Virus record (IMG/VR): IMGVR_UViG_3300009285_001830
Coordinates: 1 to 39,435 of that record
Reading direction: 5' to 3' (one strand)
Source: a virus
DNA: 39,435 nucleotides
Part shown: piece after piece, positions 670 through 39,435 of the stretch
How positions within the stretch are numbered: the first letter of the stretch is position 1
Layout: the number at the start of each line of letters is the position of its first letter
The notes under the pieces: model-generated
The model's database searches: none
The model's input: the letters and a program-made list of their open reading frames with translations, nothing else
Told to the model about the DNA's origin: nothing
Made by a program: the position numbers and the translations under genes

Positions 670-864
670 TCAGACTTGATCCTTCCTGTCGCTCTTGATC
701 TCGAACAACTCCGCTTCGGGGAGGTCCAGGATGCGTGCAACCCGCTTTCGGAAGCGGGGGCGTATCGGCTGTTGCCCAGACTCCAACCGCGCCAGGTATG
801 TTTTCTTCATGCCGAGCCGAGTGGCAAGTTGCTCCAGCGTGTAGCGTTGAAAGATAGGATGCAT
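670..864 (-). CDS. XRE-family HTH regulator (64 aa)
   Basis: A single Cro/CI-type helix-turn-helix fills this protein: YTLEQLATRLGMKKTYLARLESGQ followed by the IRPRFRKRVARIL helix pair and a LPEAELF ending, the usual pattern of XRE domains. The start is uncertain. ATG 864 lies directly against an AAGGAG run (no spacer); the frame stays open upstream to a GTG at 1014, so an N-terminal extension is possible but has low-complexity sequence. It sits downstream of a promoter that carries a TTTCG-N2-CGAAA palindrome between its -35 and -10, making it a candidate autoregulating repressor or Cro-like protein. Confidence 0.83.
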   Translation of the reverse strand: MHPIFQRYTLEQLATRLGMKKTYLARLESGQQPIRPRFRKRVARILDLPEAELFEIKSDRKDQV

Positions 865-977
865 CTCCTTGTCCGTGTTCTCCCTAGTGTTATTGTTGGA
901 AGCCGTTACCAGGACTGTCGCTCCCATTTCGGCGTCTGGCCGCCTCGCATGGGTACTACCGCTAGCGTTTCCCCATG

Positions 978-1118
978 CTAACTGGAGCCAACTATGGTTC
1001 CGCTCGGCAACCACCCCTGGCTCCTGGACGGTATCATGCGCTGGCCCGCCACGTACTCATCGTCGTACAACGCCAACTTTCCCGGCGGCGGTTGGGTCTT
1101 GCTCCCACGCCAGCGCAT
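978..1118 (-). CDS. Possible leaderless 46-residue protein
   Basis: An ATG at 1118 opens a 46-codon frame ending in TAG at 978-980. It begins MRWRGSKTQ and contains LALYDDEYVAGQ; no family was recognised. The TATAGT -10 of the promoter ends only five bases before the ATG, so transcription would begin at or next to the start codon and the mRNA would be leaderless. A GGAG run abuts the ATG but is too close to serve as a ribosome site. The XRE gene follows. It could equally be untranslated leader for that gene. Confidence 0.4.
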   Translation of the reverse strand: MRWRGSKTQPPPGKLALYDDEYVAGQRMIPSRSQGWLPSGTIVGSS

Positions 1119-1123
1119 CTCCA

Positions 1124-1151
1124 ACTATAGGGTTTCGTGCGAAAATGTCAA
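1124..1151 (-). promoter_or_regulatory. Promoter with operator palindrome in its spacer
   Basis: On the minus strand TTGACA (1151-1146), a 16-base spacer and TATAGT (1129-1124) form a strong sigma70-type promoter. The spacer is mostly a palindrome TTTCG-N2-CGAAA at 1133-1144, whose TTCG-N2-CGAA core recurs at 24196-24205 and 39296-39305. A protein bound here would block RNA polymerase directly. It should drive the 46-codon ORF, the XRE regulator and genes leftward through the contig joint. Confidence 0.75.
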
Positions 1152-1203
1152 GGGGGTTAGGGCGCGAGTTTCAGGCGAATTGGTTGCGAGGGGCGCAACC
1201 AGG

Positions 1204-2572: not shown

Positions 2573-4345
2573 CTACGGCTCTGCGACTACCACCACAGTT
2601 TTACCACGTTCATCGTGCCCTGTAAACTCCAGGCCCGTCATCTCCCGCACCTCCACTTGGTAGTTGCGAGTCCCGCCTGCGTCGTCTCGGAAGGTGAACT
2701 CCAGGAGCGTATTGCTCTCCGCAGCCGTGACCAGGGCCGCCCGCTGCTGCTGTGGCGTCTTTCCTTTATAGCTCCGGCTCAGGTCCAGCTCGCACCGGTG
2801 CGCCCACTTCGCCGCCAGCTTCTTACGGTACTCCAACATGACCGAGAGCACGTCCGGGCTTGTGGTGTTGGTGCTGCCCCGCGCCAAGGTGAGATAGAAC
2901 CTGATGAAGCGAAAGGCCAACCCCGCTCCACTAGTGCCCAGGGTGTAGGTGGTCACGCCGTCGGAGGTTATCGTACCAAGTGAGACAGCGTCCCCCCCAT
3001 TCAGAAGGTACTGCACTAGCACCGTCTCGGTGGCACTCGCCCCCGCAACTTCAACCTTGAGGGTCAGGGCTAGTTTGTCAACCTCAGACTGCCCCGTATC
3101 AAAGTGGGGCGTGTAGTGATATGCGGGCGTCCTGTAGACAAACCCTGAAACCGCCTTCGGGTTGATGCCTACAGGGTACAGAGTGATCCAGTACACCCTC
3201 TGGTTGTAGCCGAACCACAAGCGGTACAGGCTGTAGGCACTGCCCGCATACGCACCCTCGAATGGTTTGGAGATGCCTGTCAAGTAGATGTTTTGCCAAC
3301 CCTTACCATCCCACCCCATGATGGTGTCGAAGGTCTGCGAGCCGTTCAGGGCAAGAAGCTCAGCATGTGTGTTGACAAGCTGGCTGATGGTGCCCACGGT
3401 ATTGCTAGGAGGGTTGTCGCCCTCACGCGGCCAGACAATCCCAACAGCAGCGTCATCACCCGTAACCCTGTAGCCATAGATGGTTTTCCCTGCTGGAATG
3501 TACAGGGTATCCCGCCACACCACACAGCCCTTGCCGTTGTCGGCATGCTGCGGCAGGGTAAACTTCGTCTGAACAAACTTGGTGTTAGCCAGGTCGTGGG
3601 CGTAGAGGCCAACCTGGGTCATGGCGTAGAGAATGGGATTATTAGAGGTGTTCATGTAAACCAGGAGGTCGGTAACGTAGCCATCGGGCAGGCGCAGGCG
3701 GGCGTCGTTGGCTTCGGTGCCGATAGTAGACGCCGACCAGAGTTGGCCGGTGTTGTCTATGCCCCACAGCTTGTCGTTCCAGGAAGCCAGGTACAGGGTA
3801 TCAGTGGTGTCGTCCGTCCAGCTTGTCCCGTCGGAAGAGTATGAGTAGCCGCCTGTATGGGCGATCACCAGGTAGGTTGTGCCCCCAAGCTGGATTGTCA
3901 GGATGTCCGTCGCGGCTGCGGGCAGGGTGTGAACCGCAGTCCCCCAGGAGTCGGTGCTGTTGTTGTACTTGTGTACTTTTGTGCCGAAGGTGGCGTAGAC
4001 CTCGTTGGCAAGCTCGCCAATGACGCCCACTGCCGCTGACACTGTCGCCGCCGCCGTCTGTGTGGCCAGGCCGGGTAGTGTGAGGTGCCCTTTGGCTCGC
4101 AGGTTAGCGTCGGACCACCAGCAACGCCCTATACCCTCGTCACCGTGCTGAACTTCCAGGCCGAAGCCGCCCCGCCAGTCGGACCACGCCACAACGGACT
4201 TCGTGGGGTCGCTGTCACGGGTTACGTCGCCAATGACCTGCTTGGGAGCGTAGATAGAGGATAGGGAACTTTGTATCGGCGCTGTAAGGCGGTAAAAGAC
4301 GCCGTTCAGGGAGATGTCGTTGAGTTTGACGACCTTGGCGGCCAC
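2573..4345 (-). CDS. Beta-propeller-like tail protein (nozzle candidate)
   Basis: A 590-residue beta-rich protein with repeated short blade-like segments, for example LYLASWNDKLWGIDNTGQLW, ILYAMTQVGLYAHDL, CVVWRDTLYIPAGKTIYGY and YSLYRLWFGYNQRVYWI. Such W/Y-rich WxDxLY repeats fit a propeller. In T7-like podoviruses the nozzle (tail tubular B, gp12) has a related architecture and directly follows the adaptor protein gene; here the 419-residue gene precedes it by one base. The C-terminus carries a second beta domain. Assignment as nozzle is inference from size, order and virion type; a receptor-binding tail protein is the alternative. Confidence 0.7.
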   Translation of the reverse strand: MAAKVVKLNDISLNGVFYRLTAPIQSSLSSIYAPKQVIGDVTRDSDPTKSVVAWSDWRGGFGLEVQHGDEGIGRCWWSDANLRAKGHLTLPGLATQTAAATVSAAVGVIGELANEVYATFGTKVHKYNNSTDSWGTAVHTLPAAATDILTIQLGGTTYLVIAHTGGYSYSSDGTSWTDDTTDTLYLASWNDKLWGIDNTGQLWSASTIGTEANDARLRLPDGYVTDLLVYMNTSNNPILYAMTQVGLYAHDLANTKFVQTKFTLPQHADNGKGCVVWRDTLYIPAGKTIYGYRVTGDDAAVGIVWPREGDNPPSNTVGTISQLVNTHAELLALNGSQTFDTIMGWDGKGWQNIYLTGISKPFEGAYAGSAYSLYRLWFGYNQRVYWITLYPVGINPKAVSGFVYRTPAYHYTPHFDTGQSEVDKLALTLKVEVAGASATETVLVQYLLNGGDAVSLGTITSDGVTTYTLGTSGAGLAFRFIRFYLTLARGSTNTTSPDVLSVMLEYRKKLAAKWAHRCELDLSRSYKGKTPQQQRAALVTAAESNTLLEFTFRDDAGGTRNYQVEVREMTGLEFTGHDERGKTVVVVAEP

Positions 4346-5847: not shown

Positions 5848-6564
5848 CTAGAACTCTCCTTCGACTTCTGCGCCTATCATGATGATATTTTCGTCACCCA
5901 CGTCCACGCCACCCGTCCTGGCAACGGACAGCATCAACTGATACCCCACCGCAGGTTCGGTGCTGGGGATGTCCCCCGCTACGGACTGGACGGCTCCGGT
6001 CAGGGTCCCGTTGATACGGAGCCTGTCCTGGCTAGCGGGGTCGTGCTCAAGGAGAATCCAGGCGGCGTTCGCTACGACAAGGTTTGTGACGGCGCTCACA
6101 AGCTGCTGAGCGCCGTTCGCGCCATACGTCGCCAGGTTGATGTTGACGCCGTTGGTCTGCAAGCCCAGGCCGTGCGCTGCCAGGTTCCCGATGGTCGTTG
6201 CCTGTGTAACCTGGACGCGGATTGTCAGGTTGGTGCCAGTCCCGCCCGCCGACCAGAGAAGCCAGAAGCCCAGAGAGAACTTCTTGGCCCAATTGAGGCT
6301 GAAGGAGGTTGCCACCGCACCAGGGCCTGTCGCCACCTGTACACGTCGCCCTGCGGTTGAGGCGTGCGTGGTTCCCGTAGCAACCAGCACACGGTCTCCG
6401 TTGACTGTAGTAGTGCCGCTTCCGCTGACTATCTCCGCTCCGGCGGGCCAATCCAGTACGATGTGTTTATAGGACTCACGCTGGAAGGCGCGGACTGCCT
6501 CAAAGGTGTTTGAGGCAACCTGCCCGTTCCAGTCCGCCGTTGCGCCCCATCTCGGTACTGCCAT
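5848..6564 (-). CDS. Beta-rich virion protein (fibre or jelly-roll like, 238 aa)
   Basis: Alternating hydrophobic strands dominate: IVSGSGTTTVNGDRVLVATG, FSLGFWLLWSAGG, LTIRVQVTQATT, AWILLEHDP, YQLMLSVARTG. The pattern matches a lectin-like or jelly-roll fold and the DNA encodes few lysines. The start MAVPRWGATADWNGQV is a clear ATG 10 bases after the previous stop. Position among six similar beta-rich genes indicates a tail-fibre or decoration role; no enzymatic motif is visible. Confidence 0.65.
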   Translation of the reverse strand: MAVPRWGATADWNGQVASNTFEAVRAFQRESYKHIVLDWPAGAEIVSGSGTTTVNGDRVLVATGTTHASTAGRRVQVATGPGAVATSFSLNWAKKFSLGFWLLWSAGGTGTNLTIRVQVTQATTIGNLAAHGLGLQTNGVNINLATYGANGAQQLVSAVTNLVVANAAWILLEHDPASQDRLRINGTLTGAVQSVAGDIPSTEPAVGYQLMLSVARTGGVDVGDENIIMIGAEVEGEF

Positions 6565-13101: not shown

Positions 13102-13824
13102 CTAGTGCTCCTTCCTATCCCGTGTGGGGTAAATCCCATCGTTGAGTGCGTCCTGCGCCTTGACCATATCATCTGGCGACATTGAGTCGCCTCTGGCTAA
13201 CCGATTCACAAGAGCCTGTTTGCCTGAGCCTGGGGCTCTTGACGGAGTATTGTCAGCAAACTTCTGGGGAGGTGCTCCATCCTGCTTAGACCTGGCGATA
13301 ACGCCCTGAAGGGCCGCTATCATCATCTTGTCCGGACTATCAAGTTTCACGAATGTTTCCTTTGGCAAGCCCGTCTCCGTGGTGAGCCAGCTCACGAGGG
13401 TGTCCCGTGCCCCTATCTCCTTGTGGAGATTCGCCGCGTACTGCTCGGCTCGGATGCGCCCCTGTGTCCATTGCTGCTTTTCGGCTTCAAGCTGGCGCAT
13501 CTTCTGGATAACAGGGGCTACTTGCTCAGGGCTAAACCCTTCATTTTCCAACTGCTTCTGGTACGCTGCAATCGCCTGGTCGCTGTTTGCCTGAGATAGC
13601 TGCTGCCGGTGCTGTTCAAGCTGGGCCTGCGCCGCCTGTAGTTGCTCCGCCAGGAATTGCTCTTGTGGCGAGACTACAGGGGCTGGGCGAACAGGAGGTA
13701 AGGCAGGAGGTTCGGCGGCGGGCTCCGGGGCAGGAGCCTCTTGAATTGGCTCCTCGACGACATCCTCAACTGGCGCTGGTGGTGCCTCTACGCTTACGCC
13801 TGGTTCTGCAACGGCCTCTACCAT
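13102..13824 (-). CDS. Capsid scaffolding protein
   Basis: 240 residues. The first 60 are Pro/Ala/Glu-rich and disordered. Residues 60-150 are a Gln-rich coiled coil (FLAEQLQAAQAQLEQHRQQL, IQKMRQLEAEKQQW). The C-terminus is helical and basic, ending DGIYPTRDRKEH, as seen in the capsid-binding end of scaffolds. Such proteins guide procapsid assembly and are then removed. It is immediately upstream of the capsid gene. A stem-loop lies 21 bases before its start codon. Confidence 0.85.
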   Translation of the reverse strand: MVEAVAEPGVSVEAPPAPVEDVVEEPIQEAPAPEPAAEPPALPPVRPAPVVSPQEQFLAEQLQAAQAQLEQHRQQLSQANSDQAIAAYQKQLENEGFSPEQVAPVIQKMRQLEAEKQQWTQGRIRAEQYAANLHKEIGARDTLVSWLTTETGLPKETFVKLDSPDKMMIAALQGVIARSKQDGAPPQKFADNTPSRAPGSGKQALVNRLARGDSMSPDDMVKAQDALNDGIYPTRDRKEH

Positions 13825-23389: not shown

Positions 23390-23975
23390 CGCCGCCCCCT
23401 TCTGTTGACTCCACACACGCACGCGCTTCATCTAATGCGGGCTGCGATTCCGCCGCCGCTCGCCGCTCCGCGTTCCAGGCGCGTAACTCGGCCACTAGTG
23501 ATTGCGCGGGTGAAACCACCACCACTTGGGCATCCCGCTGAAGTACGCCGGTGCCATGCAGCAGGATGTCGGCCCCACGGATACGGTCGCGTGCGTGTGG
23601 GGCGTGTAGGGCATCGTCAATTAAACGTTCCGCAACAGGGTTACGGGCGGCGTTCAGGGAATCCCGTGCGCACGCGAATGAGAGGGTATCGCGCATCAAG
23701 AGCGCCTCATCCCAAGCAGCCTGAAAGGCGGGATTGATCGCTGTCCACTTACGGATGGAGGCCATTGAGGTCCCCTGGCGACGGCAGGTTTCCCAGACAG
23801 TGAGGAGTCTGCCGTCCTCGGTGGGGGTAGTGAAGACGAGGAGGAGATCGCGCATCCACGGGGCGAGAGGTTTTGACGGCTGAGGGGGGGCAGGCGTATC
23901 AAGGGAGGTGACACGGCTTGTATCAAGGGTAGGGGTAAGAGGGAGAGGTTCTTTAGGGGTACTGGCGTCTGGCAT
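23373..23975 (-). CDS. terS: Terminase small subunit
   Basis: ATG 23975 with GGAGGATTGT upstream is preferred; the frame extends to 24098 without a ribosome site. The 200-residue product has a disordered Pro/Thr start (30 residues), an HTH (LLTVWETCRRQGTSMASIRKW, then TAINPAFQAAWDEAL) and a helical oligomerisation part (CARDSLNAARNPVAERLIDD, RDRIRGADILLHGTG). The W.....NP.F...W..A sequence is typical of TerS DNA-binding domains. It recognises viral DNA and loads TerL. It is the first gene of the late operon. Confidence 0.85.
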   Translation of the reverse strand: MPDASTPKEPLPLTPTLDTSRVTSLDTPAPPQPSKPLAPWMRDLLLVFTTPTEDGRLLTVWETCRRQGTSMASIRKWTAINPAFQAAWDEALLMRDTLSFACARDSLNAARNPVAERLIDDALHAPHARDRIRGADILLHGTGVLQRDAQVVVVSPAQSLVAELRAWNAERRAAAESQPALDEARACVESTEGGGDAPTE

Positions 23976-24155
23976 ACAATCCTCCGATGGAGATGGACAT
24001 TGCCTGTTCGCGCGTGGGCCGTACCTATGTAGCGGCGTGTTCCCACAGCGTTTATGGCCGTTGCTCTGTCGCTGAATCCCCCGGCTAGTAGGGGGCAAGT
24101 GCGGCGGCGGACGGAGCTGTTCAAGAACCCCTGCCGACGGCCTGCGCCTGCCTCT
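23976..24155 (-). other. Leader of the late operon (no gene seen)
   Basis: About 170 bases separate the leftward promoter at 24185-24156 from the TerS start. I see no confident gene here; the TerS frame is open through most of it but without a ribosome site. A 15-codon ORF with ATG near 23999 overlaps the TerS start region. Such a leader could hold an antitermination or regulatory element, but no clear one was found. Confidence 0.4.
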
Positions 24156-24185
24156 GGTATATCACACCCCCGGCCCCGGTGTCAA
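24156..24185 (-). promoter_or_regulatory. Leftward late-operon promoter
   Basis: TTGACA (24185-24180), an 18-base very G-rich spacer and TATACC (24161-24156) on the minus strand. It reads into terS and the structural block. It lies back to back with the plus promoter and the 44-bp element, so one bound protein could influence both. Confidence 0.6.
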
Positions 24186-24192
24186 GCACGTG

Positions 24193-24236
24193 ATATTCGC
24201 ACGAAATTGGTACGCCACAGGTATTGACAACATGCC
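24193..24236. repeat. 44-bp promoter/operator element, copy 1 (plus orientation)
   Basis: This 44-bp stretch is repeated in inverted orientation at 39265-39308 with 42 of 44 bases identical. It includes the palindrome TTCG-CA-CGAA (24196-24205), a CCACAGG block and the -35 TTGACA, and ends six bases into the promoter spacer; the -10 regions differ. The conservation of everything upstream of the spacer implies shared activator or repressor binding. Confidence 0.85.
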
Positions 24237-24252
24237 GCCATCATGGTAGACT
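24224..24252 (+). promoter_or_regulatory. Rightward promoter of the plus-strand operon
   Basis: TTGACA (24224-24229), 17 bases, TAGACT (24247-24252). The first gene starts at 24298 after GAGGGAGGACTAAG. The element upstream of the spacer is the 44-bp repeat, so expression should follow the early promoter at 39277-39249 that carries the other copy. Confidence 0.78.
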
Positions 24253-24297: not shown

Positions 24298-24597
24298 ATG
24301 ACGGCGTTGCAGGAGCAGTTAGAGGCCCAGGTCAAGCGGGATAACCCTCGATGGTTCGAGCCAGCAACCAAGCGGTCTTTCGGTGATGTGGCCTACACGG
24401 TCCGCGTGGCGCATTCAGGCCAGGCGTACCTGGTACGGTCCACCTACGCCTGGACGGACATGGGAGGCAAGGGGAAAAAGCTTCACTACCGCCTGAACCC
24501 GTTGCGCTGGGAGGATTCCCACCTCCGAATATCCCACCTGCTGGACGAGGTTTTCGAGACTCGGCAGGAGGTAGGGGCATGGCTCAAAGCACACTGA
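24298..24597 (+). CDS. First gene of the plus-strand operon (99 aa)
   Basis: ATG 24298 has GAGGGAGGA seven bases before it. The product begins with an amphipathic helix (TALQEQLEAQVKRDNP), then a beta-rich part (DVAYTVRVAHSGQAYLVRSTYA), a GKGKKLHYRLNPLRW loop and a C-terminal helix (LLDEVFETRQEVGAWL). No family recognised. It is the largest gene of the only rightward operon and is controlled by the shared 44-bp element, so an early or regulatory role is possible. Confidence 0.75.
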   Translation: MTALQEQLEAQVKRDNPRWFEPATKRSFGDVAYTVRVAHSGQAYLVRSTYAWTDMGGKGKKLHYRLNPLRWEDSHLRISHLLDEVFETRQEVGAWLKAH

Positions 24598-26763: not shown

Positions 26764-26792
26764 ATTGTAACTCATGTTGTAACTCTTGTCAA
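26764..26792 (-). promoter_or_regulatory. Promoter of the replication operon
   Basis: TTGACA (26792-26787), 17 bases, TACAAT (26769-26764) on the minus strand: a near-consensus sigma70 promoter. Two TTGTAAC boxes overlap it (26765-26771 across the -10 and 26777-26783 in the spacer), so the protein that binds the boxes should repress transcription. Confidence 0.82.
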
Positions 26793-26839
26793 GAGAACCT
26801 GCTGCTGTTGTTGTAACCTGTTTTGTAACTTTGTTACAA
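26765..26839. repeat. TTGTAAC iteron-like boxes (candidate origin)
   Basis: Four direct TTGTAAC boxes (26765-26771, 26777-26783, 26811-26817, 26823-26829) and one inverted GTTACAA (26833-26839). Boxes 1-2 and 3-4 are each 12 bases apart, start to start, about one helical turn. Boxes 4 and 5 form a short inverted pair. The cluster adjoins the initiator gene promoter, the usual layout for an iteron origin with autoregulation. Function inferred. Confidence 0.72.
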
Positions 26840-26844
26840 AACAC

Positions 26845-26916
26845 CTCTACCTCTACCTCTACCTCTACCTCTACCTCTACCTCTACCTCTACCTCTACCT
26901 CTACCTCTACCTCTAC
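26845..26916. repeat. Twelve tandem CTCTAC hexamers
   Basis: Seventy-two bases of perfect CTCTAC repeats between the TTGTAAC cluster and the stop of the 77-residue gene (26921). One strand is pure pyrimidine plus A, the other purine plus T. No interruption is seen. It may be a spacer, a protein-binding array, an unwinding aid or a slippage product; the perfect array implies recent expansion or selection. Confidence 0.9.
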
Positions 26917-26920
26917 GCGC

Positions 26921-29077: not shown

Positions 29078-30162
29078 AGCTGATACCTCAACTCCGATTG
29101 GTACAGGGTCGTCAAGTCCTCAACGTCGTGCGGCCTGATTCCCAGCCCAGGATTGGCCATCACCGAATCGCTGTCCTCGTACAACCCCTCCTTGCCATCA
29201 TTCTCAGGCCCGGCCATGTAGTAGTGGTCAGCCAGGCCAAGTACGTGGCCCAACTCGTGTATGAGGCCGCCAAGCCCGTAGGCGTTCTCTGAGAGGGGGA
29301 TGTTGGAAAGTGCCCACCTCTGCTGTTCGTACGCTGGTCGCCTGCCCTCTGGGTCACGTAAGAACCGCTTTACTCGCACGCCCATGAAGTATCCTGACTC
29401 CTCACTCCAATCCTTTAGCGCCCATGCGGGAATCTCCCTACCAAAGAGGAAGACTCCGAAGTCGCTTGGGTCATAGTCGTCTGGCTCCTGAAGAACAAAG
29501 AAGTCCGGTAGTTTACCGCTAGTGGTTTCCCTGGTGTGTAGATTCCATGCCGCCAACGCCTGCTGTACCTCGTTGAATGTCAAGAGGCATGAGGGGTCTC
29601 GATATACAGCAATAGGCAAAGGCCCAAACCACAAGCCACCCCAGAAGTGGTTTAAGAAGTGGGCGTCAAGGCCAGGCTCCAAGCCAGGACCCTGTTGAGC
29701 CAATTCCGCCTGCAACCTGTCTATCGCCTTGCGGTACTGGACGCCACGGGCTTCTAGCTCGGCTACCTTGGCTTCCAACTCGTCAGCATACGCTACCCAC
29801 TCAGCGCCTTTCTCATTTAGCGGCCTCATTAGCCATGCCCCAATAGCGGCTTGTGCGGTATAACCCAGGTTGTGCCACTCCGGTGGCGGCGCTCCGATGT
29901 TTGGTGGCTCAGGTCGCTGCATGGGGGTCTCTTTGCTCATGCGCATTTCTCCTTGTGGGCTTCTGCTGTTCGGTCCCCAGGTGCCCTCCAGTATCCCCAG
30001 ACACATCTTGCAGTTTACTGGCCTGGGGGTTTTCATAATCTCGGCTGGCCAACCACACAAAGTCACAACAAACTGGTCAATGCGGTCTTTGACAAGATGC
30101 ACCCTATCTCTGTCAGCAACGCGCCCCTTCAATGTCTCTCCTGGTGGCTCAGGTCGCGTCAT
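29074..30162 (-). CDS. Zincin metalloprotease, apparently fused to a Cys-knuckle module
   Basis: 362 codons from ATG 30162. Residues 1-60 form a small module (RVHLVKDRI ... VVTLCGW ... NCKMCLG) like the 70-residue gene at 30584. An AAGGAG site and in-frame ATGs follow (29940 and 29922), the second opening MQRPEPPN like the first MTRPEPPG, so the protease was probably once separate. Then a coiled coil (110-155) and a metalloprotease domain with HELGHVLGLAD at 302-312 (HExxHxxGxxD zinc ligands) and a Met-turn-like SVM near 335, as in matrixin-type zincins. No signal peptide is seen. It may act on host protein, virion proteins or the envelope; no endolysin was found elsewhere. Confidence 0.82.
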   Translation of the reverse strand: MTRPEPPGETLKGRVADRDRVHLVKDRIDQFVVTLCGWPAEIMKTPRPVNCKMCLGILEGTWGPNSRSPQGEMRMSKETPMQRPEPPNIGAPPPEWHNLGYTAQAAIGAWLMRPLNEKGAEWVAYADELEAKVAELEARGVQYRKAIDRLQAELAQQGPGLEPGLDAHFLNHFWGGLWFGPLPIAVYRDPSCLLTFNEVQQALAAWNLHTRETTSGKLPDFFVLQEPDDYDPSDFGVFLFGREIPAWALKDWSEESGYFMGVRVKRFLRDPEGRRPAYEQQRWALSNIPLSENAYGLGGLIHELGHVLGLADHYYMAGPENDGKEGLYEDSDSVMANPGLGIRPHDVEDLTTLYQSELRYQL

Positions 30163-30165
30163 GGT

Positions 30166-30609
30166 TCATCTCCCTTCGGCCTTCCTGGGCCGTAGCAATC
30201 GTTTGACGGATGCCGGGGTCCAACAATCTGTTGGTTGGGACAATATAATCGTGCGTAGCTCATTCGTTGCCTTGACAGCTTGTTTTGTGTCGCTTGTTAC
30301 TATAGGGACTAGAAGGTTTCCACTCCAGTCAATCGTGGGGTATCCATAAGGGTCGTCGAACGTAGGAGTTGACCATGTTTCAATGACTGTTCCGTCTTTT
30401 GCCATTCGTACAATAGTGGTTGCCCATTCTGTCTGGGGGTCATCCATTTTCACTCTCTCAATGCGGGCACCAGTAAACATGGTCTTGTTCAGATACTCCA
30501 CGTACCGCTTTGCTCTGTCTCTTGTTGAAAACGCACCTCTTACGCGATACGATGAGTATTCCCCGTCGGTGACCAGATAAACGCTATCGGGTGGCCTGGG
30601 TCGCTTCAC
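30166..30609 (-). CDS. DUF7336-like phage protein (147 aa)
   Basis: GTG 30609 gives MKRPRPPDSVYLVTDGEYSSYRVRGAFS, where the VYLVTDGEYS.Y.V.G.F segment is a small domain common in phage and bacterial hypothetical proteins (DUF7336-type). After it come a helix (TRDRAKRYVEYLNKT), IERVKMDD and a beta C-terminus with WSGNLLVPIVT. The start overlaps the end of the preceding gene by 26 bases. Function unknown; in known genomes it accompanies tail or early accessory genes. Confidence 0.72.
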   Translation of the reverse strand: MKRPRPPDSVYLVTDGEYSSYRVRGAFSTRDRAKRYVEYLNKTMFTGARIERVKMDDPQTEWATTIVRMAKDGTVIETWSTPTFDDPYGYPTIDWSGNLLVPIVTSDTKQAVKATNELRTIILSQPTDCWTPASVKRLLRPRKAEGR

Positions 30610-30796
30610 GGTTCATCTCCTTCTGGCGAGCAAGACAACTCTTGCAGTCCTTGCAGTCAACGGGTTTGCTGGTCGCCCCGTACAGACGACCGGTGATGCC
30701 GCATAGTGTTATTGCTGTGGTGAGAAACACATCGAGCACATGCACCCGCTTTCCATTGCCGATGTAGCCACGTTTGCGGATTGTGAAACTGCCCAT
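30584..30796 (-). CDS. Cys-knuckle micro-protein (70 aa)
   Basis: ATG 30796 opens MGSFTIRKRGYIGNGKRVHVL, followed by TAITLCG and VDCKDCKSCLARQKEMN. The TLCG ... CKxC arrangement (cysteine, about 16 residues, CKDCKSC) is a small zinc-binding unit used by many short phage proteins and is related to the N-terminal module of the protease gene. The frame stays open upstream to 30901, but that part overlaps the tiny membrane gene and has an unlikely Cys/Trp-rich translation. Confidence 0.7.
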   Translation of the reverse strand: MGSFTIRKRGYIGNGKRVHVLDVFLTTAITLCGITGRLYGATSKPVDCKDCKSCLARQKEMNREATQATR

Positions 30797-30812
30797 ATCT
30801 ATGCCTCTATCC

Positions 30813-30881
30813 TCAATCTCTGTGTCCCCACCAGTACACAAAGGCCAGCACCAGGGCGCTAGCCGGTAGGCCGGGGTGCAT
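30813..30881 (-). CDS. 22-residue membrane micro-protein (short copy)
   Basis: ATG 30881 opens MHPGLPASALVLAFVYWWGHRD, a single short hydrophobic stretch flanked by HPG and GHRD. It is the shortened duplicate of the 34-residue gene at 31581-31685: ends are the same and twelve Leu/Val/Glu-rich residues are missing in the middle. The start lies inside the 3' end of the ATP-grasp gene, exactly as the longer copy starts inside the zinc-finger gene. Too short to span a membrane comfortably, so it may be a decayed or antagonist form. Confidence 0.5.
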   Translation of the reverse strand: MHPGLPASALVLAFVYWWGHRD

Positions 30882-31569
30882 TTAGTCCCTTCATAGGACA
30901 TTCTGGGTGCCAGCTACGCTCCCCCTCGGCCATGTCAATCAGATACCACTCACCGTTCTGCCCATAAGCAAAATCTACCGACCAGTATCCTGCCACGACC
31001 TGCCCCACCCATGTTGTGCAGGAGGTAAGTCGGTCCACTTCAGAACTGTCCTCATAGTTCAGCCTTGCTAACTCTTCTTGCCAGTGTTGCACGGTAGGGC
31101 GGCCCTTAGCCACAGCGTCTGCGGGCCAATAGGGGTGGTGGCACTGTACTTGCCCATCCTTGATAAAGTACCGGCGTTCCCTGGCGATTGGCAACCCTCG
31201 CCATGCCGTGAATGTAGAGGCCAGTGGAATGTACCGCCGCAGGGCTATAGCCGATGGCGTCAAATCTTGGGCCACAGTACAGTCAATCAGGGCACCAAGA
31301 TTCTTAAAGAGATGGCTCGCATCAGGAACGTAGCACGTCCATTTATAGTCATGTTTAGCCGAGGCCAAGTCTGTCCGCATGAACAGAGGGAACCCTGTCT
31401 TAGTGCTGGCGCTCAGGAGTTCGGCCACCACCGCGTCGGGCAATGGCTTGCCGTCCAGTAACCCTACCCAGACCTTCCAACTTGCCTCTACGAGTATTGT
31501 CCAGGGTTTCGGGATAGGCAGGTCTTTAATCAAGGGCCACCAGTACAGCATTGAGTTTTGTGATTCCAC
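30859..31569 (-). CDS. R2K-type ATP-grasp ligase
   Basis: GTG 31569 has AGGAGG five bases before it; 236 residues. Features of the R2K clade of ATP-grasp proteins: FMRTDLASAKHDYKW (R65, D67, K72, K76), LRRYIPLASTFTAW, ARERRYFIKDGQV, VAGYWSVDFAYGQNGEWYLIDMAEG (ATP/Mg segment near 205-220). Members of this clade (CDC123 and phage relatives) are predicted to ligate or modify proteins using ATP. Substrate unknown here. The C-terminus ends LNAPRPTG because the tiny membrane gene overlaps it; the neighbouring zinc-finger gene ends LNAPRPVS for the same reason. Confidence 0.8.
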   Translation of the reverse strand: MESQNSMLYWWPLIKDLPIPKPWTILVEASWKVWVGLLDGKPLPDAVVAELLSASTKTGFPLFMRTDLASAKHDYKWTCYVPDASHLFKNLGALIDCTVAQDLTPSAIALRRYIPLASTFTAWRGLPIARERRYFIKDGQVQCHHPYWPADAVAKGRPTVQHWQEELARLNYEDSSEVDRLTSCTTWVGQVVAGYWSVDFAYGQNGEWYLIDMAEGERSWHPECPMKGLNAPRPTG

Positions 31570-31580
31570 CTGAGCCTCCT

Positions 31581-31685
31581 TCAATCTCTGTGTCCCCACC
31601 AGTACAGAAACTCCAGCACCCACTCCAGCACCAGCAGGAGCACCAGGAGCAGCACCAGGGCGCTAGCTGACAGGCCGGGGTGCAT
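31581..31685 (-). CDS. 34-residue membrane micro-protein (long copy)
   Basis: ATG 31685, with CAGGAG upstream, opens MHPGLSASALVLLLVLLLVL and continues EWVLEFLYWWGHRD. It has one strong transmembrane segment of about 18-25 residues with an EW interface and a short charged end. Its start is inside the 3' end of the zinc-finger gene. It is repeated in a shorter form at 30813-30881. Small single-span peptides of this type act as toxins, holin-like pores or regulators of membrane proteins; which applies is unknown. Confidence 0.68.
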   Translation of the reverse strand: MHPGLSASALVLLLVLLLVLEWVLEFLYWWGHRD

Positions 31686-31887
31686 TTAGGGGACTCCTGC
31701 TCATTGTCTCCATGTCCTCTAACATCCCTGGCCAGCAATTAAGGCATATCCAATGTGTCATACCCTGGACACTAATGAAGTGGCGTCCTCCAGAAAACTT
31801 TCGGCGGCACACGTCGCACATGTATAACCCGCCACCAACCAGCTTTTGCGCTTTGTATTTCTCGTAGAGTTCATTCGTGAGCGGCAT
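31663..31887 (-). CDS. Small zinc-finger protein (74 aa)
   Basis: Starts MPLTNELYEKYKAQKLVGGG and carries two CxxC knuckles, MCDVCRRKFSGGRHF and WICLNCWPG, forming a probable zinc-binding fold. The C-terminal MSRSPLNAPRPVS is encoded by DNA shared with the start of the tiny membrane gene. The ribosome site AGGAGGGCTAAAT recurs before the 111-residue gene. Role unknown. Confidence 0.75.
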   Translation of the reverse strand: MPLTNELYEKYKAQKLVGGGLYMCDVCRRKFSGGRHFISVQGMTHWICLNCWPGMLEDMETMSRSPLNAPRPVS

Positions 31888-31893
31888 TAGTAT

Positions 31894-31941
31894 TTAGCCC
31901 TCCTCAGTCTTGCCGGTTACACCTGGTGGATAGTTGCTCAT
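31894..31941 (-). pseudogene. 15-codon remnant duplicated from a nearby gene start
   Basis: ATG 31941 opens MSNYPPGVTGKTEEG and stops. Its first ten codons equal the start of the 106-residue gene at 32858 (MSNYPPGVTGN), and 36 of 37 bases around the start match between 31910-31946 and 32827-32863. It then joins the AGGAGGGCTAAATA junction seen before the 111-residue gene. It looks like a duplicated gene start cut short by recombination. It may now act only as a leader ORF, since it overlaps the previous stop as ATGA. Confidence 0.6.
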
Positions 31942-32273
31942 GGTGCTAACTCCTTCACGGGTGCCTCCAGCGTCACCTCGAAGAACGTCACCACCTGGCC
32001 CTCTTTGTAGCCAAACTCCTTCAGGGCAGTCATCCACTGGTCAACGGTCCCAAAGCCACTACTACCCAGGCCAAACTCCAGAGAGTCAACCAGGTCGAAG
32101 GGTTCCGTACAACTCGCCAACCACTTCCGTCGCCCCTTGAGCAGTTCGAGTTCGGTGTCCAGTAGCAAGTCGAGACGACCAGACCACTGACTCCGCGTAA
32201 CCCTGGCCGTGACTACCCGCCCATGCTCCAGCAGGTACGCGGCTGCCTTGGGATGGCTGAATCGCATTAGCAT
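31938..32273 (-). CDS. Hypothetical protein (111 aa)
   Basis: Starts MLMRFSHPKAAAYLLEHGRV after GGAGGGCTAA; an ATG two codons in is also possible. The protein has a VTARVTRSQWSGRLDLLLD segment, a helix, and a beta end TFFEVTLEAPVKELAP. The stop overlaps the remnant ORF (ATGA). I recognise no family. It sits among early accessory genes of the cassette-rich zone. Confidence 0.65.
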   Translation of the reverse strand: MLMRFSHPKAAAYLLEHGRVVTARVTRSQWSGRLDLLLDTELELLKGRRKWLASCTEPFDLVDSLEFGLGSSGFGTVDQWMTALKEFGYKEGQVVTFFEVTLEAPVKELAP

Positions 32274-32533
32274 TTAGCCCTCCTAAGTCGGCAGAGTTCT
32301 ACAACCTGCCGGTCGGTTATCTCGATGGCACCATCCCGCAGGGCAGCCCGTCGCTTGTTGACTGTCAAGTCGTAGTGCGGGGGATTTTTGTCCTCGAACC
32401 ATCCACGTCGGAGCCCTATCAAGTTGGCAAATTCATGAAGCTCCTCTATTGTATCTGCGAACAGGTGGCAGGCCCTGGTATATCGCCACCGCTTGGTGGG
32501 TTGGCATGAGTGCAACTTGTCTATGTACACCAT
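32267..32533 (-). CDS. DUF4031-family protein (88 aa)
   Basis: From ATG 32533 the product reads MVYIDKLHSCQPTKRWRYTR, then ACHLFADTIEELHEFANLIGL and RRGWFEDKNPPHYDLTVNKR. The pattern V-Y-x-D ... W-R-x-x-x-x-C-H-L-x-A-D-x-x-x-E-L-H-x-F-A-x-x-I-G-x-x-x-x-W-F ... P-H-Y-D-L matches DUF4031, a small family widespread in phages and bacteria with unknown role. Completeness at both ends is clear. A longer frame to 32815 overlaps the preceding gene and is disregarded. Confidence 0.88.
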   Translation of the reverse strand: MVYIDKLHSCQPTKRWRYTRACHLFADTIEELHEFANLIGLRRGWFEDKNPPHYDLTVNKRRAALRDGAIEITDRQVVELCRLRRAKC

Positions 32534-32537
32534 CAGA

Positions 32538-32858
32538 CTAGTCCTGACCAGCTCTTTCCTCGGCCTTTCGTAGCTCCGCTTCCTCTCGCCCCGCATCATC
32601 AATCTCCTGGCAGCAACACTCCACGAGCCATAGAAACGGGCGCAGGGCATCCCGAATCGCTGGCCAGTGGGAGTGGCCTCCTGAATGACACTCCGCCAGC
32701 AGCGCTGCTTCAACCAACTGTTTGACCTCATAGGGATCAAGGCGGCCCACAGCCTCGTCCGAAAACTTATAGTCTTCGTGGAGTGGGCAATCCGTGAAAT
32801 GCACCTCCCCTGCAATCTGGCGTTCGTTGCCGGTTACACCTGGCGGATAGTTGCTCAT
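32538..32858 (-). CDS. Hypothetical protein (106 aa)
   Basis: ATG 32858 follows AAGGAGGCACC and starts MSNYPPGVTGNERQIAGE. Beyond it are CPLHEDYKF, a helix VKQLVEAALLAECHSGGHSH and WLVECCCQEIDDAGREEAE. Histidine and cysteine content suggests a metal site but the spacing is not diagnostic. The start is duplicated as the remnant ORF at 31894-31941. Confidence 0.65.
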   Translation of the reverse strand: MSNYPPGVTGNERQIAGEVHFTDCPLHEDYKFSDEAVGRLDPYEVKQLVEAALLAECHSGGHSHWPAIRDALRPFLWLVECCCQEIDDAGREEAELRKAEERAGQD

Positions 32859-33169
32859 GGTGCCTCCTTGACCTTCTCCATCTCGCAGGCTGCCACCAGA
32901 CCCGAATATGTCCAATCAGCATCTTCGGCTGTCACACTGAAGCGATGACCATTGTTGCCGGAGTGCCCACAACCAGGAGAGGACCGATAACCACGCGGGT
33001 AGATATACCGAACGGTTCCCAGGAGGCGCTTGCCCAAGAAGTCCTCCGAGTCCTCCGAGTGTCCAGGGCCACCACAGACCAGGCATCTGCACTCAGGGCT
33101 GAAGCGCAACCTCACCTTGTCGCCTACCTCTGGCACCCAGGGTTCGTAGAACTCGCGCTCCTCGCTCAT
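32855..33169 (-). CDS. Hypothetical protein with Cys cluster (104 aa)
   Basis: Starts MSEEREFYEPWVPEVGDKV, a beta barrel-like opening (VRLRFS), then ECRCLVCGGPGHSED with three close cysteines, LLGTVRYIYPRGY and SPGCGHSGNNGH. The stop overlaps the next start (ATGA). The SH3-like VGDKVRLRF strand plus zinc-like cysteines suggest a small nucleic-acid or protein-binding protein; unrecognised. Confidence 0.65.
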   Translation of the reverse strand: MSEEREFYEPWVPEVGDKVRLRFSPECRCLVCGGPGHSEDSEDFLGKRLLGTVRYIYPRGYRSSPGCGHSGNNGHRFSVTAEDADWTYSGLVAACEMEKVKEAP

Positions 33170-37622: not shown

Positions 37623-37817
37623 TCACTGGCGCGGGGTCTCCTCTCGAATATGAGCCTCGATGTGCTCACAGGGTCGCCAGTTGCACTGAGTAGACCAGCC
37701 TTCATTCTCAGCCGACCAGCAACCGTTGCACTGGCGGCACAGGTACAGGCCAAACCGGAGGACGACGTTGGGGGTCGGTGGCTTTGGCAGGAGAGGCTGA
37801 AAGGAGATTATTGTCAT
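37623..37817 (-). CDS. Small Cys-rich protein (64 aa)
   Basis: Its ATG overlaps the pentapeptide stop as ATGA. The sequence [20 protein letters not shown] leads to [18 protein letters not shown] and [13 protein letters not shown], with six cysteines spaced for one or two zinc ions. No family recognised. Confidence 0.65.
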
Positions 37818-38473
37818 AATCCTAGCTCCTTCTTCCGTTGCTCGATAATAAACAGTAGTGCCTCTGCATCAGCCCTGAAGTTTGCTGGGGGGTTGCCGGC
37901 CTCCACCTTAGCCCAGAACTCCTCCGGGGAGCCTGTGAAACAACCGAGGGTTATCACGGGCGTCGGCCTCATCGAGACATAGGCAACTGCGGCAATCGAG
38001 AACGCGGGGCCAAAGGTGAAGAACGCCCGCACCCCTATAGCGCCCGTGAGGTTTGCGCCCCAGAGGTTTGCGCCCCAGAGGTTTGCGCCCGTGAGGTTTG
38101 CGCCCCGGAGGTACGCGCCCGTGAGGTCTGCGCCCGTGAGGTTTGCGCCCCGGAGGTACGCGCCCCGGAGGTCTGCGCCCGTGAGGTTTGCGCCCCGGAG
38201 GTACGCGCCCGTGAGGTACGCGCCCCGGAGGTACGCGCCCGTGAGGTTTGCGCCCCGGAGGTACGCGCCCGTGAGGTACGCGCCTCTCAGGTTCGCCCCC
38301 TCCAGGTTCGCCCCCTCCAGGTTCGCCCCCATCAGGTTCGCCCCCACCAGGTACGCCCCCGCCAGGTTCGCCCCCATCAGGTTCGCCAGTTGCCCACCTG
38401 GCTCTCCACGCACCCGTGCTATATGTTTGGTCAGGATGTCGGTTATCTGCTCTGCGGTCAAAGGCTCAGTCAT
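37814..38473 (-). CDS. Pentapeptide-repeat protein (219 aa)
   Basis: ATG 38473 overlaps the previous stop (ATGA). After an N-terminal helix ([20 protein letters not shown]), roughly residues 28-147 are uninterrupted A(N/D/Y)L(x)G repeats, for example [19 protein letters not shown], forming the right-handed quadrilateral beta-helix of pentapeptide repeats. The C-terminal 70 residues are a separate domain ([24 protein letters not shown]). Some family members mimic DNA and bind gyrase; whether this one does is unknown. The DNA shows a 15-base periodicity (CGCCCCGGAGGTACG type). Confidence 0.88.
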
Positions 38474-38871
38474 GGCTGTACCCCTTTCCTGACATTGGTG
38501 ATAGCCTGTCTCGCCGCGCACCCCAAGCGGTCATGCACAGCCTGTGCGTCGTCCCCGGTGGCACAGTAGAAGGCCGCGACATCTCCGTAGCCGCCACAGT
38601 ATTCCTTCAGGAGGATCGCGGGACCGAGACGCCCACACTGAGAGCACCTGGCCGTACAGAAGATGGAGACGGTATCGGTTGTGCGCCTTCTCAGTAAATC
38701 GACATCCAGGGCTTTGCGCTCGGCCCGATGCTCGGTGGCCAGGGCTTTGCGCTCGGCCCGATGCTCGGTGGCCAGGGATTGGAGTGCGGCCCTTTGCTTG
38801 GCGGCCAGGAAGTCAAGTGCGTCCAGGTAGTCGGTGTACTGTATGGGCGTCGCCTTATTCTGCGCCATCAT
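38470..38871 (-). CDS. Early protein with 11-residue tandem repeat and Cys cluster (133 aa)
   Basis: Starts [21 protein letters not shown]. It contains two exact copies of [11 protein letters not shown] (DNA repeat of 33 bases at 38706-38771), a helical charged stretch, then CTARCSQCG and later [13 protein letters not shown] and CAARQAI. Four or more cysteines suggest a metal site. The repeat is too regular to be old. Function unknown; it overlaps the XRE gene end and precedes the pentapeptide gene. Confidence 0.7.
38706..38771 (-). repeat. Two tandem 33-bp repeats
   Basis: The unit CCAGGGCTTTGCGCTCGG with CCGATGCTCGGTGG is present twice in exact tandem (38706-38738 and 38739-38771), duplicating eleven codons in the 133-residue gene. 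Perfect identity suggests a recent duplication. Confidence 0.88.
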
Positions 38872-39136
38872 CGTTGGCCTCCTGTGGCGGAGCCGCCGTC
38901 CTCTCAGGCTCGAATATCCAGTCGTAGGGCACCCCCAGCAGGTGCGCTATGGCGTGCTGTTGCTCAGCCGTCAGGTAGTCCCCCTTCCGGCCCGCCATCG
39001 CGTGCAACAGACGCCATCTGCCGGGCATCCCGATTTCCGAGGCAACCCAGGTAGCCGTGCGCTTATTTACCTCCAGCAGTTCCTTGAGCCGCACCGCCCA
39101 CCGTGGCGGCACTGGTTTGGATTTCACTACGGTCAT
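38855..39136 (-). CDS. XRE-family HTH regulator of the early operon (93 aa)
   Basis: Starts MTVVKSKPVPPRWAVRLKELL. The HTH core is RTATWVASEIGMPGRWRLLHAM, then a third helix and LTAEQQHAIAHLLGVPYDWIFEP, the XRE pattern in which the final segment closes the domain. The start overlaps the 26-codon gene as ATGA and follows AAGGAGGAGG. It lies right after the early promoter with the 44-bp element, the expected position of a Cro-like protein. It is distinct in sequence from the other XRE protein at 670-864. Confidence 0.85.
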   Translation of the reverse strand: MTVVKSKPVPPRWAVRLKELLEVNKRTATWVASEIGMPGRWRLLHAMAGRKGDYLTAEQQHAIAHLLGVPYDWIFEPERTAAPPQEANDDGAE

Positions 39137-39248: not shown

Positions 39249-39277
39249 ATTGTAAGGCACGGCAGGCATGTTGTCAA
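39249..39277 (-). promoter_or_regulatory. Early leftward promoter
   Basis: TTGACA (39277-39272), 17 bases, TACAAT (39254-39249) on the minus strand, near consensus. Start of transcription would be near 39242, before the 26-codon gene. The region from -35 upstream is the second copy of the 44-bp element with its TTCGTGCGAA palindrome at 39296-39305. Confidence 0.85.
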
Positions 39278-39308
39278 TACCTGTGGTGTACCAGTTTCGT
39301 GCGAATAT
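39265..39308. repeat. 44-bp promoter/operator element, copy 2 (minus orientation)
   Basis: Reverse-complement copy of 24193-24236 with two differences. Palindrome core at 39296-39305; CCACAGG and the TTGACA -35 included. It starts two bases from the stop codon of the junction zinc-ribbon gene, so the promoter and gene end are tightly packed. Confidence 0.85.
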
Positions 39309-39309
39309 G

Positions 39310-39435
39310 CTACGAAAGACGTGGGCTGTGGTGGCCCTGGCCGTGCTTGCGAAGGCCAGGTAAATGGGGCTTGTGTCTGTTGCCGGGGGCGGGTTCAGGC
39401 AGATCGAGGTCTTGATACCATCCGCACTGTAGGCA
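39310..39435 (-). CDS. Zinc-ribbon protein, 3' part (gene crosses the contig joint)
   Basis: C-terminal part of the 88-residue protein that begins at 154 (bases 39423-39435 duplicate 1-13). It encodes the second CxxC knuckle (CLQCGWYQDL), a Pro/Gly-rich stretch and a basic HGQGHHSPRLS ending before TAG at 39310-39312. Finding that both ends of the window belong to one in-frame gene is strong evidence for circularity. Confidence 0.72.
   Translation of the reverse strand, partial: CLQCGWYQDLDLPEPAPGNRHKPHLPGLRKHGQGHHSPRLS

Follow-up and report, generated by a model that had tools for sequence, protein, structure and literature searches.

A 13-bp core at fixed spacing from three predicted promoters of an uncultured bacterial virus, a putative site of one regulator

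Some small XRE-type proteins activate transcription from an upstream site and repress their own gene from a site that overlaps the promoter; examples are lambda CI at PRM and the controller (C) proteins that accompany restriction-modification systems. In autoregulated phage and restriction-modification controllers, a gene with two sites, one positioned to compete with the polymerase, tends to be that of the regulator itself. The L5-type operators and stoperators of cluster A mycobacteriophages are 13-bp asymmetric sites that lie along the direction of transcription and are dispersed at phage promoters; the L5 sites number more than twenty, and many are located away from promoters (PMC9283540). 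The SPBRE sites of Bacillus phage SP-beta are formed by one short element repeated in several phage promoter regions and are read as a single regulon. They are bound by MrpR, a protein with the tyrosine-recombinase fold, for which ten bound promoter regions were reported in SP-beta (PMC10516654). The element described here would act most like these two dispersed operator sets, and it was classed with neither, because it has four sites only, all at promoters, and its candidate protein is of another build.

The window, that is, the whole 39,435-bp virus record, contained a 44-bp element twice in inverted orientation, with 42 of the 44 bases matching. This pair had been described in an earlier note, and a recount agreed with it; about 2e-13 pairs as good were expected in a random 39.4 kb sequence of the window's size and composition, so the match was far beyond chance. 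The palindrome TTCGCACGAA, the CCACAGG block, and the -35 hexamer TTGACA, which had been placed inside the shared DNA, were found in both copies. The two mismatches, at 24207 (T/C) and 24214 (G/A), were both transitions. Both copies abutted predicted strong sigma-70-type promoters, and the elements and promoters were located as follows.

24193-24236, plus strand: 44-bp element, copy 1, with the TTCGCACGAAATT core, the GGTACGCCACAGGTA block, the -35 hexamer TTGACA, and 7 bp of spacer
39265-39308, minus strand: 44-bp element, copy 2, with its parts ordered as in copy 1
24224-24252, plus strand: P24224, predicted promoter of the small rightward operon, TTGACA-17-TAGACT with TG before the -10
39249-39277, minus strand: P39277, predicted promoter of the early leftward operon, TTGACA-17-TACAAT (11/12)
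1124-1151, minus strand: P1151, predicted promoter of the HTH gene, TTGACA-16-TATAGT (11/12)
24156-24185, minus strand: P24185, putative late leftward promoter, TTGACA-18-TATACC with an extended -10 (TGA), adjoining copy 1 back to back
24298-24597, plus strand: first gene of the small rightward operon

The identity between the copies had its upstream edge at 24193 and its downstream edge at 24236. It lay mostly upstream of the -35 hexamer, as had been claimed, but extended 7 bp beyond it. The back-to-back arrangement of copy 1 with a late leftward promoter was also recovered, with the palindrome between the two promoters and its centre 15.5 bp upstream of the P24185 -35. About 700 bp (23431-24150) from the late leftward promoter to the first likely late gene had neither a clear coding signal nor an Rfam match. 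On the other side, the codon bias of the gene 24298-24597 resembled that of other genes. Its homologue in one relative (L044, 7822-8157, minus strand; 37-39% identical) was likewise divergent from the terminase operon. Homologues were found in one lineage in IMG/VR, and Pelagibacter phage HTVC010P gave a match that was weak and partial.

When both strands of the whole window were searched with the core TTCGCACGAAACT, allowing up to two mismatches, exactly four sites were obtained, at 39305(-), 24196(+), 1143(-), and 1179(-). The earlier count of two copies was incomplete in this respect, as both sites at P1151 had been missed and the core was present in four copies at three promoters.

24196-24208, plus strand: core TTCGCACGAAATT, centre 23.5 bp upstream of the P24224 -35
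39293-39305, minus strand: core TTCGCACGAAACT, centre 23.5 bp upstream of the P39277 -35
1167-1179, minus strand: core TTCGCCTGAAACT, centre 23.5 bp upstream of the P1151 -35
1131-1143, minus strand: core TTCGCACGAAACC, within the spacer between the -35 and -10 of P1151

The upstream core thus held a fixed position at all three promoters. Perfect copies of TTCGNNCGAA occurred three times in the window, in both 44-mers and at 1134-1143, and a copy with one mismatch, at 1170-1179, had the same distance to the -35 as in the 44-mers. In 100 dinucleotide-preserving shuffles, 13-mer cores with up to two mismatches occurred with a mean of 0.55 and a maximum of 3, against 4 observed. The sharing among several promoters was beyond chance, because four sites lay at three promoters and 0/100 shuffles reached four; the chance of a two-mismatch core at one given place was about 7e-6. 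Among 379 TTGACA-like hexamers, the 23.5-bp offset was occupied by the palindrome, with no more than one mismatch, at just these three promoters. A weight matrix derived from the four sites scored them at 22-27 bits and the next best place at 9.4. The three core-bearing promoters were among the best sigma-70-like ones in the window, and all were near consensus. The LexA-type box (GAAC-N4-GTTC) was also considered and rejected; copies were found at 561 and 19590, and none at these promoters.

Between the upstream site and the -35, P1151 was unlike the other two promoters. Because this DNA has diverged, the feature that was kept is the core together with its spacing, and this would look like the predicted binding site of one regulator. 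The GGTACRCCACAGGTA block and the 7 bp after the -35 were common to copies 1 and 2 only. The suggestion that two promoters share an upstream regulatory site was supported, and it was strengthened by the third promoter, which kept the core and its exact spacing amid diverged DNA; a recent copy may account for the rest of the 44 bp. In its full form, the alternative of a recent copy holds that the identity reflects only a recent duplication of a short promoter segment, with no shared regulator. It agrees with the sharp edges on both sides, with the identity through the core-to--35 block and 7 bp further, with the small number of differences (two, of one kind), and with the presence in the early region of further 25-50 bp repeats close to gene starts. 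It leaves unexplained the P1151 core at the same offset and the perfect core in the P1151 spacer, and we consider it unlikely. The extra identity of copies 1 and 2 may most simply reflect recent local copying of a control segment; alternatively, it may be a second site that is unused at P1151, and the two transitions fit either. The repeated DNA itself is probably a genuine control element of an uncultured bacterial virus, with a putative regulatory role.

These sites resembled those of L5 in being 13 bp long, dispersed at phage promoters, and oriented with transcription (4/4). However, the core is nearly palindromic, which weakens the test of orientation, and the many copies and off-promoter sites of L5 had no counterpart, since the four sites were all at promoters. 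The likeness to SP-beta was in the repetition of one short element in several promoter regions, which can be read as a single regulon; in contrast to MrpR, the candidate protein is of the XRE type and three promoters are concerned.

A circular or circularly permuted genome is probable, because an ORF crosses the joined ends and the contig ends have 13 bp in common. The genes that bear on the assignment of a regulator were the following.

154 to stop 39310, minus strand, across the joined ends (1-154 and 39310-39435): zinc-ribbon ORF (CxxC...CxxC)
670-1014, minus strand: XRE/HTH regulator gene (Pfam HTH_31 2e-9, HTH_3 1e-7)
38855-39136, minus strand: first gene of the early leftward operon, weakly XRE/lambda-repressor-like

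Read leftward across the junction, the order was tRNA-Met, P1151, the HTH gene (670-1014), 368-655, the zinc-ribbon gene, copy 2 with P39277, the XRE-like gene (38855-39136), and the early region. Copy 2 began right after the stop of the zinc-ribbon ORF. The early region contained genes for an RNA ligase, an Erf-like annealing protein, an exonuclease, and DnaC/DnaD-like loaders, and the early operon also encoded a pentapeptide-repeat protein (37814-38521). No integrase was recognised among the scanned proteins, which included several long ORFs with no family match, and the Rfam scan gave tRNA only. Other repeats were observed in the window. Several 25-50 bp segments were repeated within 29902-32863 with 73-97% identity, some of them at gene starts (e.g. 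31910/32827 and 30143/30590). Five TTGTAAC/GTTACAA repeats lay within 75 bp (26765-26839) around a strong leftward promoter (26792), before the DnaD/DnaC-like loader genes, and were adjoined by an (ACCTCT)n tract (26843-26917); they are possibly origin iterons or the sites of another regulator.

The HTH gene 670-1014 lies directly behind the two-site promoter P1151. Its product matched HTH_31 with 38.1 bits (cut-off 27) and HTH_3 with 32.4 bits (cut-off 23), both exceeding the curated cut-offs, and has room for one HTH domain only. The start of the gene is uncertain (GTG 1014 or ATG 864), and the N-terminal 50 residues are doubtful. A low-confidence structure model resembled SinR, C.BclI, C.AhdI, and 434 Cro, all with E above 0.001. 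Neither this protein nor the XRE-like protein 38855-39136 had homologues in IMG/VR or among GenBank phages.

With moderate confidence, and from sequence features, we propose that one autoregulated factor, most likely the XRE protein 670-1014, recognises the element and through it runs a small phage regulon. The oriented 13-mer TTCGCACGAAAYY would be the site of this single DNA-binding regulator, and the members of the regulon would be the early leftward operon (P39277), the small rightward operon (P24224), and the regulator's own gene (P1151). Through the intergenic site of copy 1, P24185 and with it the late leftward operon could also belong. Because P1151 has a two-site layout with an HTH gene behind it, activation from -58 with feedback from the spacer site was proposed. 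Bound at the upstream site, centred at about -58, the regulator would contact RNA polymerase and activate transcription at all three promoters; when abundant, it would occupy the spacer site of P1151 and block the polymerase, giving negative feedback. We infer each of these three steps, namely the HTH protein as binder, activation from the upstream site, and repression from the spacer site. Activation is the least certain step because the three promoters are near consensus, and such promoters may need no activator. If the upstream sites served repression instead, DNA looping or a complex spread across the 44 bp would be required. The candidate resembles the C proteins and lambda CI as a small XRE-type protein, with a weak fold match of its model to C.BclI and C.AhdI; it differs from them in its DNA sites and genetic setting, and its dual action is putative.

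The binder could instead be the second XRE-like protein or a host factor. The early Cro-like protein 38855-39136 would, on this alternative, lower expression of the HTH gene and of the rightward operon as well as of its own operon. Its gene is first in line behind copy 2; the protein's model, of low confidence, was like lambda-type repressor domains (E above 0.001), and the protein had a weak PHROG repressor match. Its own promoter, however, has a distant upstream site only, the occluding site being at the HTH gene, and a repressor centred at -58 has no obvious means of blocking the polymerase. We regard this assignment as rather unlikely.

Phages often exploit host repressors, and a host regulator (e.g. 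of the DNA-damage or stress response) bound at these sites could be used by the phage for promoter timing. The nearly palindromic core and the near-consensus sigma-70 promoters would fit a bacterial regulon. Against this, a terminase search of genome contigs gave no match and named no host, and a literature search over titles and abstracts found no published site of this sequence. In addition, the palindrome at the same spacing had eight matches in IMG/VR, with one such site in each viral record, which is about the number estimated for chance. A host regulator is thus distinctly unlikely as the binder. Among the eight, L068 at first resembled the window and was rejected, since its site apparently falls in the terminal part of a coding sequence.

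The exact 44-bp element was absent from IMG/VR, GTDB genomes, GenBank phages, and PLSDB plasmids. Relatives were collected by the gene 2573-4345 (16 records, 42-53% identity) and by the terminase (27 records, all but one 47-58% identical). A search of relatives had been named in the earlier note as a check; the palindrome occurred in none of these terminase and 2573-4345 relatives, the searched collections contained no closer record, and no inverted 44-bp promoter pair comparable to that of the window was found among them. Two relatives carried other recurrent palindromes. In a 39-kb relative (G012), GTCGTGAnnnnnTCACGAC occurred five times, always intergenic; in its loci L046/L047, GTCGTGA-N5-TCACGAC was located at 13600, 15389, 16487, 17998, and 18424. 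In a second (G030, locus L062), GTTTAAAC occurred eleven times, mostly between genes and often as GYGTTTAAACATG; two copies in L062 lay upstream of TTGACA promoters, at 6560 and 7811. Because G012 and G030 carry these, this group may commonly have dispersed palindromes, with sequences that differ.

Centromere sites are scattered over the genomes of plasmid-like phages such as N15, and the dispersed palindromes of the two relatives would also agree with a role of the sites in DNA replication or partition (centromere- or iteron-like), their proximity to promoters being coincidental. That role is highly improbable, given that all four sites either kept a set distance from a promoter or overlapped one and that no partition gene was recognised among the scanned proteins.

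The reading as a regulon of one autoregulated factor predicts identical spacing and one occluding site at the regulator's own gene. In a more tentative and rather doubtful extension, one oriented 13-bp site would coordinate early, accessory, and regulator transcription and, via the back-to-back region that is shared, late transcription as well; it would serve for activation at -58 and for repression within the spacer of the regulator's own promoter, in a lineage with no sequenced close relatives and with a binder possibly of an undescribed kind. For this phage group, which has no sequenced close relative, the result offers a concrete proposal, a regulon of four sites with a named candidate for its regulator. 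The element looks like the site bound by one self-controlled phage switch protein, an ordinary kind of thing, here in an unstudied virus lineage.
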